Source of the DNA: Sphaerochaeta pleomorpha str. Grapes
GTDB lineage: Bacteria; Spirochaetota; Spirochaetia; Sphaerochaetales; Sphaerochaetaceae
Assembly (NCBI RefSeq): GCF_000236685.1
Contig: NC_016633.1
Coordinates: 1,054,001 to 1,118,000, forward strand
DNA: 64,000 nt
Direction: 5' to 3'
The first letter of the stretch is position 1, and every line of letters starts with the position of its first letter. The translations under genes and the position numbers were made by a program. Below are positions 32,834 through 41,853 of the stretch, piece by piece. The notes below the pieces were generated by a model that made no database searches, was not told the DNA's origin, and saw only the letters and a list, made by a program, of their open reading frames with translations.

Positions 32834-33322
32834 ATGCAAGAACTTATCGAACAGACATTACAGAACTTATCCATAGCGTATCGTCTGGTACATCACCAGG
32901 CTGCCTACACCATGGCGGAAATGGAAGCATTGAATCTGAACCTTGGATGTACACACGTAAAGAACCTGTTTTTACGGGACCGAAAAAGCAGAAAATTCTT
33001 TTTGTTCTGTGTAAAAGGAGACAAACCGGTCAACCTGCAGCTGCTCTCGATCAAACTAGGGGTAGCAGGTGGGTTGAGCTTTGCAAATCACCAGCAGTTA
33101 CAAGACAAACTGGGTCTTATGCCAGGTTCGGTAACCCCCTTGGGAATACTCAACGATGAGAAGCGAGAAGTAACAGTGGTGCTGGATTCAGGATTCACCG
33201 ATACTGAGCTGGTTGGGGTGCATCCCAATGAAAATACAGCTTCGGTACTATTTATGTTTTCAGACTTGGTACGGATCCTTGTCGAGCATAAGACTCCGAT
33301 ACAATATATGGATTTGAAATGA
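32834..33322 (+). CDS. proX: Prolyl-tRNA editing protein ProX (YbaK/ProXp family)
   Basis: 162 residues from the ATG at 32834, the normal length of free-standing editing domains; the longer frame adds 69 unrelated residues. Motifs: HHQAAYTMAEMEAL near the start, CTHVKNLFLRD, FLFCVKGDK, LSFANHQQLQDKLGLMPGSVTPLGI, and a C-terminal HPNENTASVLF. These are the hallmarks of the ProXp-ala/PrdX group, which hydrolyses mischarged Ala-tRNA(Pro). No ribosome site is visible. The stop overlaps the Nudix start by 4 bases. Confidence 0.92.
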   Translation: MQELIEQTLQNLSIAYRLVHHQAAYTMAEMEALNLNLGCTHVKNLFLRDRKSRKFFLFCVKGDKPVNLQLLSIKLGVAGGLSFANHQQLQDKLGLMPGSVTPLGILNDEKREVTVVLDSGFTDTELVGVHPNENTASVLFMFSDLVRILVEHKTPIQYMDLK

Positions 33323-33846
33323 ACGCAAAAAAAGAACGGATTTATCAAGACACCTCCTATACCATCGATGCTGTGAAACTCGAGCTGGACAATGGAATGC
33401 TGTGTGAATTCCCCCTTATCAACCATCCCGGAGGGGTTGTCATTCTGGCAATGAACGAATACCGCCAGATTGCCCTGGTAAAACAAAATCGTTTTGCCAT
33501 CGGGGAGGAGACGCTTGAGCTACCGGCAGGAAAGCTGGACAACAAACCGAATGAAACACCTTTAGATGGTGCAAAACGGGAATTGCGGGAAGAAGTGGGG
33601 GTTTTGGCCAACGACTGGACGTTTCTCGGCCATGTGTATCCATCACCCGGGATCCTCAATGAAAAACTCTGGTTATATTTTGCCAAAGACATCGTCCTCT
33701 CAAAACAAGACCTCGATTTCGACGAAATACTTACAGCAGAATGGATGAGCCTTTCCTCTTTCCGGTCACTGTTGCTCACAGGCAAAATAACCGATGCAAA
33801 AACCCTCTGCGCCTATGCCCTGGCAAAGGAAAAGAACTTTCTTTAG
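33319..33846 (+). CDS. Nudix hydrolase, ADP-ribose pyrophosphatase type
   Basis: 175 residues. The Nudix box runs from PAGKLDNKPNETP to AKRELREEVGV near residues 72-98. The E-x7-REL-x-EE-x-G part is perfect, but seven rather than five residues separate Gly from Glu at its start, a small insertion. GHVYPSPGILNEKLWLYFA after the box is typical of ADP-ribose/sugar-nucleotide pyrophosphatases, which cleave to AMP plus sugar phosphate. It is coupled to proX through an ATGA overlap and closed by a terminator. Confidence 0.9.
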   Translation: MNAKKERIYQDTSYTIDAVKLELDNGMLCEFPLINHPGGVVILAMNEYRQIALVKQNRFAIGEETLELPAGKLDNKPNETPLDGAKRELREEVGVLANDWTFLGHVYPSPGILNEKLWLYFAKDIVLSKQDLDFDEILTAEWMSLSSFRSLLLTGKITDAKTLCAYALAKEKNFL

Positions 33847-36432: not shown

Positions 36433-37029
36433 ATGGCAATAGATACAGTTAAGATAGAAGAACATATACGGGGCATTCTACAGGCTTTGGGAGAAAACCC
36501 CGACAGGGAAGGCCTTAAGGCAACCCCAAAGCGTGTTGCCCACATGTATGAGGAACTTTTCGAGGGGATTCAGTATTCAAACGACGATATAGCAAAGATG
36601 TTTGACAAGACGTTTGAAGAGGATCTCTATATTGCTCAAGGCAACAACGAAATTGTTATGATGAGAGACATCGAACTGTTCAGTTTCTGTGAGCACCATA
36701 TGGCATTGATGTACAACATGAAAGCCTCTGTTGCCTATATCCCTAATGGAAAGATCCTTGGACTGAGCAAGATTGCAAGGATTGTGGACATGGTAAGCAA
36801 ACGGTTGCAACTACAAGAGAGGATCGGGTCTGATATTGCCGAAGTCATACAGAAAGTCACAGGTTCCGAGGATGTTGCTGTCATTATCGAAGGACAACAT
36901 GCGTGTATTACCACCAGGGGAATAAAGAACACAAAATCGGTAACCGCGACGACAACCCTGCGGGGAAGATTCCATACTGACCAGAACTTCATGAACAAGC
37001 TTATGCTTCTGTACAGAAAAGAGGTCTAA
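36433..37029 (+). CDS. folE: GTP cyclohydrolase I
   Basis: 198 residues from the ATG at 36433 with GGGGAG 6 bases upstream. The type I enzyme's zinc ligands are all present: Cys86 and His89 in SFCEHHM, Cys158 in [29 protein letters not shown] and the C-terminal RGRFHTD are conserved. It converts GTP to dihydroneopterin triphosphate, the first step of folate synthesis, in the cytoplasm. First gene of folE-HD-folP-folB-folK. Type IB (FolE2) is ruled out by length and motifs. Confidence 0.97.
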
Positions 37030-37047: not shown

Positions 37048-37533
37048 ATGTATATGGAAACCGTGGAAAAAATCCTTGCCCATCCCCAGTTCTGGGCCTA
37101 TCTTGAACTGAATGCAGAGGCAGAAAAAGACCGGGTGTATTGCAAGCATGACTATCAGCATGCCCTTGATGTGGCAAGAGTGGCCTACTGCATAGTTCTG
37201 GAAAGACATCTATCAATTGACAAAGACCTGCTCTATGCCACGGCATTGCTTCATGATATTGCAAAGTGGAAACAGTATGCACTGGGGAGCGACCATGCAG
37301 AAGAGGGAGCTGTTCTAGCCGGACAAATCCTTTCAGATATTGGACTTGATAAGGATACTACCGCTAGCATCCTCTGTGCCATTCGAACGCACCGAGCAAA
37401 AGATGGGGAAAAATCCCTGCTCGGTGAGGTGTTGTATGAAAGCGACAAGGCCTGCAGGCCCTGTATTTCATGTAAAAGTCTGAAAGGTTGCAAGAGGTTT
37501 CCGGATGGAAAGAAACCTGCGTTGCAATACTGA
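37048..37533 (+). CDS. HD-domain phosphohydrolase in the folate operon
   Basis: 161 residues (a second ATG at 37054 is an equally good start). HD-domain metal ligands: His in YQHALDVARV, the HD pair in ATALLHDIAKW, and a later His in GSDHAEEGAVLAG and AIRTHRAK. The C-terminus has a cysteine cluster C-x2-C-x2-C-x5-C (ACRPCISCKSLKGCKRF), which could bind zinc or an Fe-S cluster. It lies between folE and folP with short gaps. The pathway step between them, removal of phosphates from dihydroneopterin triphosphate, has no other candidate here. That activity is inferred; archaeal MptB, an HD protein acting on a neopterin phosphate, is a precedent. Confidence 0.8.
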   Translation: MYMETVEKILAHPQFWAYLELNAEAEKDRVYCKHDYQHALDVARVAYCIVLERHLSIDKDLLYATALLHDIAKWKQYALGSDHAEEGAVLAGQILSDIGLDKDTTASILCAIRTHRAKDGEKSLLGEVLYESDKACRPCISCKSLKGCKRFPDGKKPALQY

Positions 37534-37564: not shown

Positions 37565-38383
37565 ATGAACACGAGCATAACGATGGCAGACAAAACATGG
37601 GAATGGGGGAAAAGGACCTATATCATGGGCATCTTGAATGTAACTCCTGATTCATTCTCAGACGGAGGCCGCTATTCCAATAGGGAAATTGCGGTGGACC
37701 ATGCCCTCCAGATGGTGAGTGAGGGAGCAGACATCATCGATATCGGTGGAGAGTCTACCAGGCCGGGGACAACGGTGCCCTTGCCTGAAGATGAAGAGAT
37801 CGAGAGGATTATCCCTGTAATCGCGCGCTTGTCAAAGCAAAGCACCATCCCGATCTCAGTGGATACCTACAAGGCAAAGACTGCAGAGTATGCTGTCAAA
37901 GCCGGAGCCCATATGATCAACGATATATGGGGCTTGAAAAAAGACCCAGAAATGGCCAGCGTTGTCGCTTCCTGTAATGTTCCTATATGCCTCATGCACA
38001 ACCGCCCCAACACAGATTACGACAACCTTATCAAGGACATTCTCCTTGACCTGGAAGAAAGCATAGAACTCGCCATTCAGGCTGGTGTTCGTGATGAACA
38101 CATCATCCTCGACCCAGGTATCGGGTTTGGAAAAACCTGGGAACAGAACCTTCAGGTAATGCGAAACCTGGAAATGTTCAAGACCTTGGGGTATCCCATT
38201 CTCCTAGGGGCATCTCGTAAAAGTTTTATCGGCAAGATACTGGGTCTGGAAGTCCAAGACAGGCTCGAAGGAACCTTATCAGTTACCTCAATCGGGATTA
38301 TGAAGGGTGTTGACATCGTACGAGTCCATGATGTGTTGCAGAACGTTAGGGTTGCAACGATGACGGACAGAATAGTAAGGTAG
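37565..38383 (+). CDS. folP: Dihydropteroate synthase
   Basis: 272 residues from ATG 37565 (AAGGAT 7 bases upstream). Signature sequences: YIMGILNVTPDSFSDGG, IDIGGESTRPG, VDTYKAKTAEYAVKAGAHMINDIWG, LDPGIGFGKTWEQNL, GASRKSFIG and a C-terminal IVRVHDV. It joins p-aminobenzoate to hydroxymethyl-dihydropterin diphosphate; it is the sulfonamide target. The order within the operon and 5-base gap to folB indicate coordinated translation. No obvious resistance-type change was looked for in detail. Confidence 0.97.
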   Translation: MNTSITMADKTWEWGKRTYIMGILNVTPDSFSDGGRYSNREIAVDHALQMVSEGADIIDIGGESTRPGTTVPLPEDEEIERIIPVIARLSKQSTIPISVDTYKAKTAEYAVKAGAHMINDIWGLKKDPEMASVVASCNVPICLMHNRPNTDYDNLIKDILLDLEESIELAIQAGVRDEHIILDPGIGFGKTWEQNLQVMRNLEMFKTLGYPILLGASRKSFIGKILGLEVQDRLEGTLSVTSIGIMKGVDIVRVHDVLQNVRVATMTDRIVR

Positions 38384-38388
38384 GGTCT

Positions 38389-38769
38389 ATGGATAAAATT
38401 ATCATCGAGGATTTACAAGTCTATGCCCACCATGGGGTAGCCCAGGAAGAGAAAGCTATCGGTCAGATGTTCATCATATCGATTGAGATTGGCGCAGACC
38501 TTGATTTGGCTGCCAAAACAGATGATTTGCATGCAACTATCAGCTATGCTGAGGTCTGTGACGAAGTCCAGAACGTGTTGCAGGCAAAAACCTACAGTCT
38601 TATCGAAGCGGCAGCCCTGCAGGTTATCGAGCATCTTTTCAAGACATATCCACTGATTGAGGAAATAAAGGTGCGGTTGAAAAAACCTTGGGCTCCCATG
38701 GGCCATCATCTCAAATATGCGGCTGTAGAACTACAACGCAAGAAGGAAGACAAACATGACTGGCTGTAA
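38389..38769 (+). CDS. folB: Dihydroneopterin aldolase
   Basis: 126 residues, family length. IIIEDLQVYAHHGVAQEEKAIGQ at the start is the classic DHNA motif with the substrate-binding Glu, followed by DLHATISYAEVCDEV, YSLIEAAALQVIEHLF and EIKVRLKKPWAPMG with the catalytic Lys. It converts dihydroneopterin to hydroxymethyl-dihydropterin plus glycolaldehyde. The end overlaps folK by 14 bases. Confidence 0.96.
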   Translation: MDKIIIEDLQVYAHHGVAQEEKAIGQMFIISIEIGADLDLAAKTDDLHATISYAEVCDEVQNVLQAKTYSLIEAAALQVIEHLFKTYPLIEEIKVRLKKPWAPMGHHLKYAAVELQRKKEDKHDWL

Positions 38770-39214
38770 AATGACAGCCTACCTTGCCTTGGGGTCAAAC
38801 CTCGGGGACAGGGAAGAACATTTGAGAAACGCCTTAAAAATGCTCTCCCTGACAGAGGGGATCGAGGTTACAACCGTCTCGACTTTTATAAATACAGCAC
38901 CGGTCGGCTATACCGACCAACCTGATTTCCTCAATGCAGTCGTGGAAATAGAAACTACCTTGGACCCGTATGCCCTGCTTTCCGTGTGCAACGAGATAGA
39001 ACAGGCGTTGAAACGTAAGCGCATCATCCACTGGGGACCAAGGACAATCGATGTCGATATCCTGTTGTTCGGGGATCTAATCCTGGAAGATGAGAAGCTG
39101 ACAATCCCCCACCCAAGGATGCTTGAAAGGGAATTCGTCATGAAACCCTTGTGCGAGATCGCTCCAAAAGCCCTGCACCCGGTCAAAAAGAAAACAATCA
39201 AAGATCTTCTGTAA
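38756..39214 (+). CDS. folK: HPPK, hydroxymethyldihydropterin pyrophosphokinase
   Basis: 152 residues. ALGSNLGDREEHL near the start, NTAPVGYTDQPDFLNAVVEIET, GPRTIDVDILLFGD and PHPRMLEREFVMKPLCEIAP are diagnostic. It adds pyrophosphate from ATP to the pterin made by FolB. The ribosome site (AGAAGGAAGA) is inside folB; a second in-frame Met at 38771 is possible. Last gene of the folate operon. No folC, folA or pab gene follows in the window, and no clear terminator is seen. Confidence 0.96.
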   Translation: MTGCKMTAYLALGSNLGDREEHLRNALKMLSLTEGIEVTTVSTFINTAPVGYTDQPDFLNAVVEIETTLDPYALLSVCNEIEQALKRKRIIHWGPRTIDVDILLFGDLILEDEKLTIPHPRMLEREFVMKPLCEIAPKALHPVKKKTIKDLL

Positions 39215-39786: not shown

Positions 39787-40362
39787 ATGAAAACAGCACA
39801 AAAAAGTATTGTCTGTCTCCTGCTCTTGGTTATTGCCCTCTCTAGCGTTAATGCTGCAGTAACCTGGGAGCCCTACCTTGGCTTTAGCAAAGGTGAAGCG
39901 AAAATTGATGGAGAAAAAATTCCTTTTTTCGAACTTTCCCTAGGAACACCACTTGGGTCAAGGACAACCATTGAAACATTCCTTTTGGCCCAGCCTCTCT
40001 CTGATTTTCCCCATTTTTCTTGCACTGCCAATATTACCGACACTGACAACGCATTTGCACTGATGACCGGGATCAAGACCAGCCTGACGCTCTTCAAGGA
40101 TGCCACCTTCAATCCGATGGTACAAGCCAGTCTCGGACAGATGATCATCGGCAATCTCGAGCCAACAGCAAACTATCCTGAGCTCTCGTATTATTTCTAT
40201 AGCAGCATAGCCACAGGGTTTGCATTGAACTTCTTTGAATCCTTTAAGATTCTCATCCTTTCCGGCTATCGTTTCGCTCCTCATGATCAAGTCATTGGTC
40301 TTGAAAGCAATGCACTCTCTTCAAAATTTTGTTCAATAAGCTTCAGGGCAGATCTAGACTGA
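39787..40362 (+). CDS. Small exported beta-type protein next to apbE
   Basis: 191 residues with a Sec signal peptide (MKTAQKSIV, hydrophobic core, SSVNAAVTW at about 24). The mature part shows alternating strands (WEPYLGFSKGEAKI, FFELSLGTPLGSRTTIETFLLAQ, ILSGYRFAPHD, FCSISFRADLD), suggesting a small barrel or lipocalin-like fold. I do not recognise a family. It is followed after 62 bases by apbE, mirroring the arrangement of apbE with a 184-residue barrel-like protein at 12553-14205. The two small proteins are not obviously homologous by eye. Confidence 0.7.
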   Translation: MKTAQKSIVCLLLLVIALSSVNAAVTWEPYLGFSKGEAKIDGEKIPFFELSLGTPLGSRTTIETFLLAQPLSDFPHFSCTANITDTDNAFALMTGIKTSLTLFKDATFNPMVQASLGQMIIGNLEPTANYPELSYYFYSSIATGFALNFFESFKILILSGYRFAPHDQVIGLESNALSSKFCSISFRADLD

Positions 40363-40424
40363 TTACGACAGCCGCAAAGGCTGAACAAGAAGAGCCAACA
40401 TTGGCTGAGAACAAGGCAGGGCAT

Positions 40425-41426
40425 ATGGAACAACCATCTTGCGCATCAAAAAAATTCTTTGGCATGAATACAGAAATAGAATGCAAACTGTTCGGAGAAC
40501 ATGCTAAAGAGGCAATGCAGGCGATTCAATTGGAACTACACCTTCTGGAGAACCTGTGGAGCCGATACCTGCCTTCCAGCGATATTGGGAAAATCAACAC
40601 AGCTGCAGGCAAAGAATTTGTTACGGTTGCTCCTGAGACATTTGCCTTACTTTCCCAGGCCAAGTCTTTCTCAAAGCTATCAGAAGGGGTTTTCAATGTG
40701 ATGGTTGGTCCCTTGGTTGACCTGTGGGACTACAAACATGCAGTTAGGCCGCCTACTCGGTCAATGGTCAAAAAGGTTTTGCCATTGACCGACCCAGATG
40801 ATTTGGTACTCACAGCAGACAGCTCTAGGGTGGGTCTGCGCAAGCTTGGCCAATCGATTGATGTAGGAGGTATCGCTAAAGGGTGTGCCACAGATTATTG
40901 TGTAGGCATACTCGATGCGTACGGGATTTCCTCCGCTTTCATCAATATCGGTGGAAATGTTGTAGTACGGGGAACAAAACCTGAGGGGAACCCATGGAAG
41001 GTAGGAATACGGCATCCAAGGAAACCTGACTCGATGCTTGGTGTTTTGGATGCCTGTAACACCTCAATAGTAACCTCTGGTGATTACGAACGATTCTTCA
41101 TAGGCCCAAAAGGAAAAAGATGGCATCATATTCTGGATTCAACAACTGGGTACCCTGTACAATCGGCGTTCTCCAGTGTTACCGTTGTGTATGGCAATTC
41201 CCTGGTCGCGGATGCCCTTTCGACACTATTGTTTATGTCAGGGATAGAAACCGGATTGGAAATCCTGTCAAGATTCCCTGGCGCTGAAGCTGTATTCGCA
41301 GATTCCCGACTATGCGTACTGATTACACCAAACCTTGTTTCAAAATTCCATATCGCTGAACCGATGGAACTATCTGTGGTTAAAAGGAAAGAAAAAAATG
41401 AAAAACACAACAAAAAAAAGGAGTAG
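40425..41426 (+). CDS. apbE: FAD:protein FMN transferase (ApbE) without visible signal peptide
   Basis: 333 residues from ATG 40425; a TTG at 40329 could add 32 residues, but neither start gives a hydrophobic signal. Landmarks: FFGMNTEIECKLFG, LWSRYLPSSDIGKIN, FNVMVGPLVDLWDYK, SIDVGGIAKGCATDY, GGNVVVRGTKPEG, HHILDSTTGYP and the metal-site SLVADALSTLLFMSG. The next gene, overlapping by 29 bases, encodes an FMN-binding-domain protein with an SGAT acceptor site, its probable substrate. A cytoplasmic enzyme for a substrate facing the periplasm would be unusual; a missed start or unusual export is possible. Confidence 0.9.
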   Translation: MEQPSCASKKFFGMNTEIECKLFGEHAKEAMQAIQLELHLLENLWSRYLPSSDIGKINTAAGKEFVTVAPETFALLSQAKSFSKLSEGVFNVMVGPLVDLWDYKHAVRPPTRSMVKKVLPLTDPDDLVLTADSSRVGLRKLGQSIDVGGIAKGCATDYCVGILDAYGISSAFINIGGNVVVRGTKPEGNPWKVGIRHPRKPDSMLGVLDACNTSIVTSGDYERFFIGPKGKRWHHILDSTTGYPVQSAFSSVTVVYGNSLVADALSTLLFMSGIETGLEILSRFPGAEAVFADSRLCVLITPNLVSKFHIAEPMELSVVKRKEKNEKHNKKKE

Positions 41427-41853
41427 GAAGATGTTTTGGATTCTCATGATTATTGTATGTGCAATAGTGGCTGTTCTCATTGCCGGAATGTTGCTTGATG
41501 CACCGGGACGCAAAGAAATCGCAGAGCTGACTTTTTCTTCCATCGATTTCGATACCTTGCAGGATGGAACGTATGTGGGAGAATTCAAAGGAACAAAATC
41601 ACATATGCGCGACACTCAGGTTGCAGTCGTGGTTTCCAAAGGTATTGTTTCAGATGTAAAGATTAAAAAAGGCGCCATCGACAAAAACGGAAAAGCGGTA
41701 CCCCTGAAGGGGGACCAAACCATCGATCAGCTTTTTGATTCTGTACTGCAAAAGAAAACCTTCGATGTAGATGTAATCAGTGGCGCTACCCTCACTTCAA
41801 AGACACACTTGAAAGCAATGGAAAACGCCCTGATGCAATCACAGGGAAAATGA
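41398..41853 (+). CDS. Membrane-anchored FMN-binding-domain flavoprotein
   Basis: 151 residues from ATG 41398, with AAGGAAAG 8 bases upstream. One N-terminal helix (FWILMIIVCAIVAVLIAGML) anchors it with the rest outside. The FMN-binding domain (RnfG/NqrC/PplA type) contains DGTYVGEFKG, VSKGIVSDVKI and the flavinylation site VDVISGATLTS, where the Thr of SGAT receives FMN through a phosphoester bond made by ApbE. Probably an electron carrier at the outer face of the inner membrane. No other Rnf/Nqr subunit is nearby. Converges with sbcC, with a 23-base gap. Confidence 0.88.
   Translation: MKNTTKKRSRKMFWILMIIVCAIVAVLIAGMLLDAPGRKEIAELTFSSIDFDTLQDGTYVGEFKGTKSHMRDTQVAVVVSKGIVSDVKIKKGAIDKNGKAVPLKGDQTIDQLFDSVLQKKTFDVDVISGATLTSKTHLKAMENALMQSQGK

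Follow-up and report, generated by a model that had tools for sequence, protein, structure and literature searches.

A predicted FolQ2-type HD-domain protein with a family-specific cysteine quartet in a Sphaerochaeta folate operon

We analyzed a 64,000-nucleotide stretch of DNA from Sphaerochaeta pleomorpha str. Grapes (NC_016633.1, positions 1,054,001 to 1,118,000; hereafter the window), whose genome is 3.59 Mb in one contig. The window carries an uninterrupted operon, folE-HD-folP-folB-folK, with all genes on the forward strand (Table 1). The original prediction had placed an HD-domain gene between folE and folP, and its coordinates and neighbors proved correct by Pfam and NCBIfam scores. 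The ORF is intact, starts with ATG and encodes 161 amino acids. A second in-frame ATG lies at 37054, and residue numbers in the text and table run from this codon, which gives 159 residues. The start codon of folE was picked by eye. The HD protein scores above the cut-offs of the Pfam HD model PF01966 (22 bits) and of HDIG TIGR00277 (27.6 bits), while neither Pfam nor NCBIfam holds a more specific family that matches it, and Pfam detected no Nudix domain in it. As had also been predicted, there is no NudB-like gene in the operon, which lacks Nudix genes altogether. Rfam gave no match upstream of folE or between folE and folK, and an RNA element in the operon was therefore rejected.

Table 1. 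Positions of the folate operon genes and HD protein residues in the window, and of the four FolC-HD fusions. Counts refer to the window protein plus the best 80 of 183 relatives.
Feature	Position	Strand	Evidence
folE, GTP cyclohydrolase I	36433..37029	+	PF01227 (GTP_cyclohydroI) 222.8 bits; TIGR00063 194.5 vs cut-off 181.6
folQ2-like HD-domain protein	37048..37533	+	PF01966 36.9 bits; HDIG TIGR00277 32.6 bits
C30, not in the tail; fourth cysteine of the proposed quartet	37141..37143	+	81/81
H36, first metal ligand of H...HD...H...H...D	37159..37161	+	81/81
H67-D68, HD pair	37252..37257	+	81/81
H81, putative second-metal ligand	37294..37296	+	81/81; signature per PMC8177086
H113, putative second-metal ligand	37390..37392	+	81/81
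D131, last metal ligand	37444..37446	+	81/81
Cysteine tail C137-x2-C140-x5-C146	37462..37491	+	81/81
folP, dihydropteroate synthase	37565..38383	+	PF00809 286.7 bits; TIGR01496 327.3 bits
folB, dihydroneopterin aldolase	38389..38769	+	PF02152 120.9 bits; TIGR00525 113.9 bits
folK, HPPK	38756..39214	+	PF01288 151.3 bits; TIGR01498 160.4 bits
FolC-HD fusion L102	4609-6483		Pfam Mur_ligase_M, Mur_ligase_C and HD in same protein
FolC-HD fusion L130	4492-6483		Pfam Mur_ligase_M, Mur_ligase_C and HD in same protein
FolC-HD fusion L232	1294-2976		phmmer
FolC-HD fusion L233	1273-2931		phmmer

Outside the operon, a Nudix hydrolase is encoded upstream of folE (33319-33846). Its nearest model is that of the ADP-compounds hydrolase NudE, with 72.6 bits against a cut-off of 169, and genes that by eye are PTS-like and cation-antiporter-like stand between it and the folate genes. 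Downstream of the operon, the ORF at 40329-41426 reads like an ApbE-type FMN transferase and is followed by one that reads like a small FMN-binding-domain protein (41335-41853).

FolE is the first enzyme of the folate pathway and makes 7,8-dihydroneopterin triphosphate, which is linear. Removal of the last phosphate, from dihydroneopterin monophosphate, is usually credited to a non-specific phosphatase, and dephosphorylation is the activity of most HD hydrolases. The genome encodes FolE, FolB, FolP, FolK and FolC. We found no PTPS in it, and a PTPS bypass was rejected. Seven Nudix proteins are present, and none reaches the NudB equivalog cut-off of 103 bits, the best score being 31.2 bits for L009. 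The vacant position in the route of this genome is the dephosphorylation that leads from FolE to FolB.

In 2007, the enzyme that dephosphorylates dihydroneopterin triphosphate was described as unidentified in most bacteria (De Crecy-Lagard et al., 2007, PMC1971073). That paper proposes HDIG proteins termed FolQ2, such as CPE1020 of Clostridium perfringens, as alternatives to the dihydroneopterin-triphosphatase FolQ; it places them in folate clusters, mainly of Clostridia, and its table marks the prediction as not verified. FolQ2 is also listed in a folate pathway reconstruction (PMC6593275, 2019), and we found no experimental test or assay of it in the open-licence literature. The window protein is likewise an HDIG protein in a folate cluster and in this respect resembles CPE1020 as described in the 2007 paper. 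FolQ (NudB) is assigned the same metabolic step and has an unrelated, non-homologous Nudix fold. Thus, the window gene is a spirochaete member of an already proposed, predicted family.

One scan of genome contigs yielded 183 relatives of the HD protein, and we retained the best 80. Together with the window protein, these form a set of 81 sequences from named genomes, mostly Clostridia, with the gut commensals Blautia and Coprococcus among them; the family also occurs in Slackia, and the clostridial relatives match the HD protein nearly end to end. PF01966 and HDIG TIGR00277 match all 81 members, while the YqeK model TIGR00488 matches only eight of them at E 0.001. A scan of viral contigs found no relatives. 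One sequence filed as "Bacteriophage sp." (MT835992.1, L052) was rejected as a phage-borne relative, since its gene content looks like that of a bacterial chromosome: by eye it has genes for GyrB-type and GyrA/ParC-type topoisomerases ahead of folC-folE-HD-folP-folB/folK.

A survey of fol operons for the HD gene had been suggested along with the original prediction. When it was run, 79 of the best 80 of the 183 relatives had folate genes (folE, folP, folB, folK or folC) around the HD gene, the sole exception, L118, lying on a contig of 5 kb. The arrangement folC-folE-HD-folP-folBK was found in 32 of these 80, including L052. Other relatives among the best 80 showed folE-HD-folP-..., folE-folP-folB-folK-HD, folK-HD or folC-HD-folP, and a further order was HD-pabA-pabB-pabC-folE, with the pab genes identified by eye. 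Because the gene orders are many and different, the link between the HD gene and folate genes does not reflect a single inherited block. Moreover, in four clostridial genomes FolC and the HD domain are fused in one ORF (Table 1), and we saw no folE in the clusters bearing these fusions. Fusion and repeated re-association in varied orders carry more weight than a single conserved operon would, and membership of the HD protein in the folate pathway is close to certain.

We also considered whether the HD protein could replace FolE. This was rejected, as all 19 HD-carrying genomes in which no folE was seen beside the HD gene encode a cyclohydrolase, FolE elsewhere in 18 genomes and FolE2 in one. 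Thus, the HD gene goes with either cyclohydrolase as the source of the triphosphate.

Seventeen positions are invariant in the 81 sequences (the window protein and the best 80 of 183 relatives): E24, R27, C30, H32, H36, R42, Y61, H67, D68, Y75, H81, H113, D131, R135, C137, C140 and C146. H36, H67, D68 and D131 supply the H...HD...D ligands of the HD superfamily, in keeping with the PF01966 score, and H81 and H113 supply the two extra histidines, between the HD pair and the last aspartate, that distinguish dinuclear sites. The full motif, H...HD...H...H...D, is diagnostic of a dinuclear HD site, as exemplified by YqeK, and HD enzymes whose substrates have several hydrolysable bonds are mostly multinuclear (PMC8177086). 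The superfamily also holds phosphodiesterases, oxygenases and a hydratase (PMC8177086). From these residues, the window protein is probably a dinuclear-metal HD phosphohydrolase.

This residue set bears on an alternative in which the HD protein would act only on dihydroneopterin monophosphate, with a promiscuous Nudix protein or other enzyme removing pyrophosphate from the triphosphate. The seven Nudix proteins of the genome, with the weak NudB match of L009 among them, could provide such an activity, and HD monophosphatases such as YfbR exist. However, YfbR and the other HD monophosphatase YGK1 are mononuclear (PMC8177086), whereas the family keeps all six dinuclear ligands, and the operon does not supply a Nudix gene. 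We regard this division of labor as fairly unlikely and favor an HD enzyme that itself attacks the triphosphate.

The original prediction described a C-x2-C-x2-C-x5-C tail that is not part of a plain HD domain. The string is present in the window protein as C134-RP-C137-IS-C140-KSLKG-C146. However, position 134 is a cysteine in only 6 of the 81 sequences (the window protein and the best 80 of 183 relatives) and is usually serine, so we rejected the four-cysteine tail as a single motif. The invariant quartet instead consists of C137, C140 and C146 together with C30, which lies just N-terminal of H32 and H36. The invariance of C30 is not a search artefact, since the search pattern that brought in 28 of the best 80 relatives did not include C30, and all 28 keep it. 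C30 and the tail cysteines are absent from 25 other HD homologues, the majority of which have retained their catalytic residues. C30, C137, C140 and C146 thus act together as a signature of the family. C30 precedes H36 by six residues and C137 follows D131 by the same number; as H36 and D131 are expected to bind a common metal, this geometric argument would place C30 and C137 close in space. The quartet is a likely candidate for a family-specific metal site, with zinc or Fe-S as the natural reading.

An AlphaFold2 model built from the 81-row alignment (mean pLDDT 95.7, pTM 0.91) shows a single compact domain of about 160 residues, in which the cysteine tail is well folded (pLDDT block means 90-97 over residues 121-150). 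The closest solved structure by both sequence (E 1e-14) and fold (Foldseek E 4e-5) is 2pq7, an uncharacterized HD hydrolase from an uncultured member of the Thermotogales, and it is the only structure with a fold E below 0.001. It differs from the window protein in that the alignment stops before the cysteine tail and the residue at the C30 position is not a cysteine. The YqeK-family structures 2ogi, 3ccg and 8wmy gave weak fold matches with E about 0.02, although for 2ogi the Foldseek probability was 1.00 and a profile match had E 2e-4. YqeK, the HD diiron Ap4A hydrolase (2o08, 2ogi, 8wmy), shares the HD fold and the six-ligand pattern. However, the window protein scores 16 bits against the TIGR00488 cut-off of 70 and falls outside the YqeK family, and the description of YqeK in PMC8177086, in which the word "cysteine" does not occur, has no such quartet.

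That the quartet is specific to this family, and missing from HD relatives with catalytic residues, could also fit a regulatory protein that reads nucleotide or redox state through the cysteine site and tunes folate synthesis without catalysis. The invariance of the catalytic ligands in all 81 sequences and a fold of one compact domain, with no regulatory domain, argue against such a sensor, which we consider very improbable; a catalytic role in the pathway remains our preferred reading.

The co-occurrence sample comprised 243 genomes from the class to which Ruminiclostridium belongs, with a threshold of E 1e-20 for the HD family. The family is present in 46 genomes, always with a score of at least 167 bits. 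All 46 carry folK, as compared to 27 of the 197 genomes that lack the HD gene (Fisher p 7e-31, uncorrected for kinship, so that the certainty is overstated). In 42 of the 46 genomes, no more than 6 kb separates the HD gene from a folK on its own strand. It is between folC and folP in three; in the last, it is beside genes that by eye are pabA/pabB-like. Conversely, 27 of the 73 genomes with folK lack the HD gene, and in several of their operons folE is directly 5′ of folP with nothing between. No replacement phosphatase was recognized between folE and folP in eight such operons read gene by gene, nor did phmmer call a Nudix-like ORF in the 27 regions, so a substitute phosphatase or Nudix protein in these operons was rejected. 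Within this sample, the HD gene is confined to folate-making genomes, yet folate is also made without it. Since folE adjoins folP with no substitute, the dephosphorylation step can be carried out otherwise. The NudB score is below the cut-off in all of the 28 family-carrying genomes examined for it and passes it in only 1 of 14 control genomes. With so few controls passing, and with 27 of 73 folK-carrying genomes lacking the HD gene, a missing NudB is weak as an argument on its own.

Two clostridial loci, L201 and L202 (genomes G392 and G421), have folE/folP/folB/folK operons much like that of the window but no HD gene. Ahead of folE, L202 has genes that by eye are queD- and queE-like, and FolE may therefore be shared with queuosine synthesis in that genome.

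The absence of the HD gene from 27 of 73 folK-carrying genomes, some with operons otherwise alike in order, would fit a damage-control or salvage enzyme acting, for example, on a cyclic or oxidized pterin phosphate or another side product. Archaeal MptB offers a precedent, as an HD enzyme that opens a cyclic neopterin phosphate, and thus shares with our protein its fold and, in our reading, a pterin phosphate as substrate. However, the partner of MptB makes a cyclic phosphate, whereas the FolE encoded here is canonical, with a linear triphosphate as its product, and a core step better accounts for both the FolC-HD fusions and the position between folE and folP. We judge a damage-control role improbable and continue to favor a step in the main route.

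In a sample of 26 genomes of the genus Sphaerochaeta (that of the window and 25 others), the HD gene occurs in four, which are the only ones with a folK of the window type (about 150 bits). In three of the remaining genomes folK is divergent (70-82 bits), and 19 have none. The order folE-HD-folP-folB is kept in the three other carriers. Among named genomes, too, the closest relatives of the HD gene include Sphaerochaeta species in which the operon is the same. A profile search of 296 Spirochaetota genomes detected no full-length family members outside the genus, other matches scoring at most 52 bits. In a tree of the 81 sequences (the window protein and the best 80 of 183 relatives), the four Sphaerochaeta-type proteins group together (support 98/89) inside Bacillota, within an eight-row group (100/99) that also contains Caproicibacter, Megamonas, Ruminiclostridium and Petroclostridium. 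The patchy distribution within the genus and this tree position do not support vertical inheritance in spirochaetes. Instead, the nesting of the Sphaerochaeta sequences inside Bacillota and the lack of full-length members elsewhere in the Spirochaetota genomes searched suggest that the operon was acquired by horizontal transfer, most likely from Clostridia.

Two further genomes of the genus, G007 and G020, carry a different folate-type operon (L153, 84-2445; L156, 76-2462) without an HD gene. With names given partly by eye, it consists of a folE-like gene, a short-chain dehydrogenase, folB and the divergent folK, followed by an AhpD-like gene; the dehydrogenase has the TGX3RXG motif of FolM/PTR1.

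The reading that we favor, with moderate confidence, is that the window protein is a FolQ2-type, probably dinuclear HD phosphohydrolase whose dedicated role is in de novo folate synthesis, at the step between FolE and FolB. With two metal ions held by H36, H67, D68, H81, H113 and D131, the enzyme would take phosphate off 7,8-dihydroneopterin triphosphate. It would do so either by releasing pyrophosphate, which gives the monophosphate, or by complete removal, which gives dihydroneopterin. The dephosphorylated product would then serve FolB. Near the active site, the quartet of C30, C137, C140 and C146 would hold one more metal, zinc or Fe-S, with a structural or redox function. The original prediction of a candidate missing folate phosphatase draws support from the folate context of 79 of the best 80 relatives, the fusions, the association with folK and the conserved ligands, but the idea itself had been put forward before, as FolQ2. 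Against the open-licence literature, what is new is the corrected cysteine quartet, the FolC-HD fusions, the indifference to FolE or FolE2, the one-way co-occurrence and the probable transfer to Sphaerochaeta; the accessible part of PMC1971073 mentions neither the quartet nor FolC fusions, and neither Sphaerochaeta nor Slackia.

A more far-reaching version, which on the present sequence evidence we hold to be speculative and rather improbable, is that one enzyme carries out both dephosphorylation steps, with a [4Fe-4S] or zinc site, built from C30 and the three tail cysteines, linked to its dinuclear HD center. If true, iron or redox state would be connected to the folate synthesis of these anaerobes. 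Our preferred reading, a FolQ2-type enzyme at the FolE-FolB step, can be approached at little cost, as a compact family found inside the folate operons of dozens of Clostridia lends itself to direct and cheap testing. Confirmation would fill the step of dihydroneopterin triphosphate dephosphorylation and make predictions of folate synthesis in the gut microbiome better. It would also extend the HD superfamily by a new class of substrate and a new accessory cysteine site.
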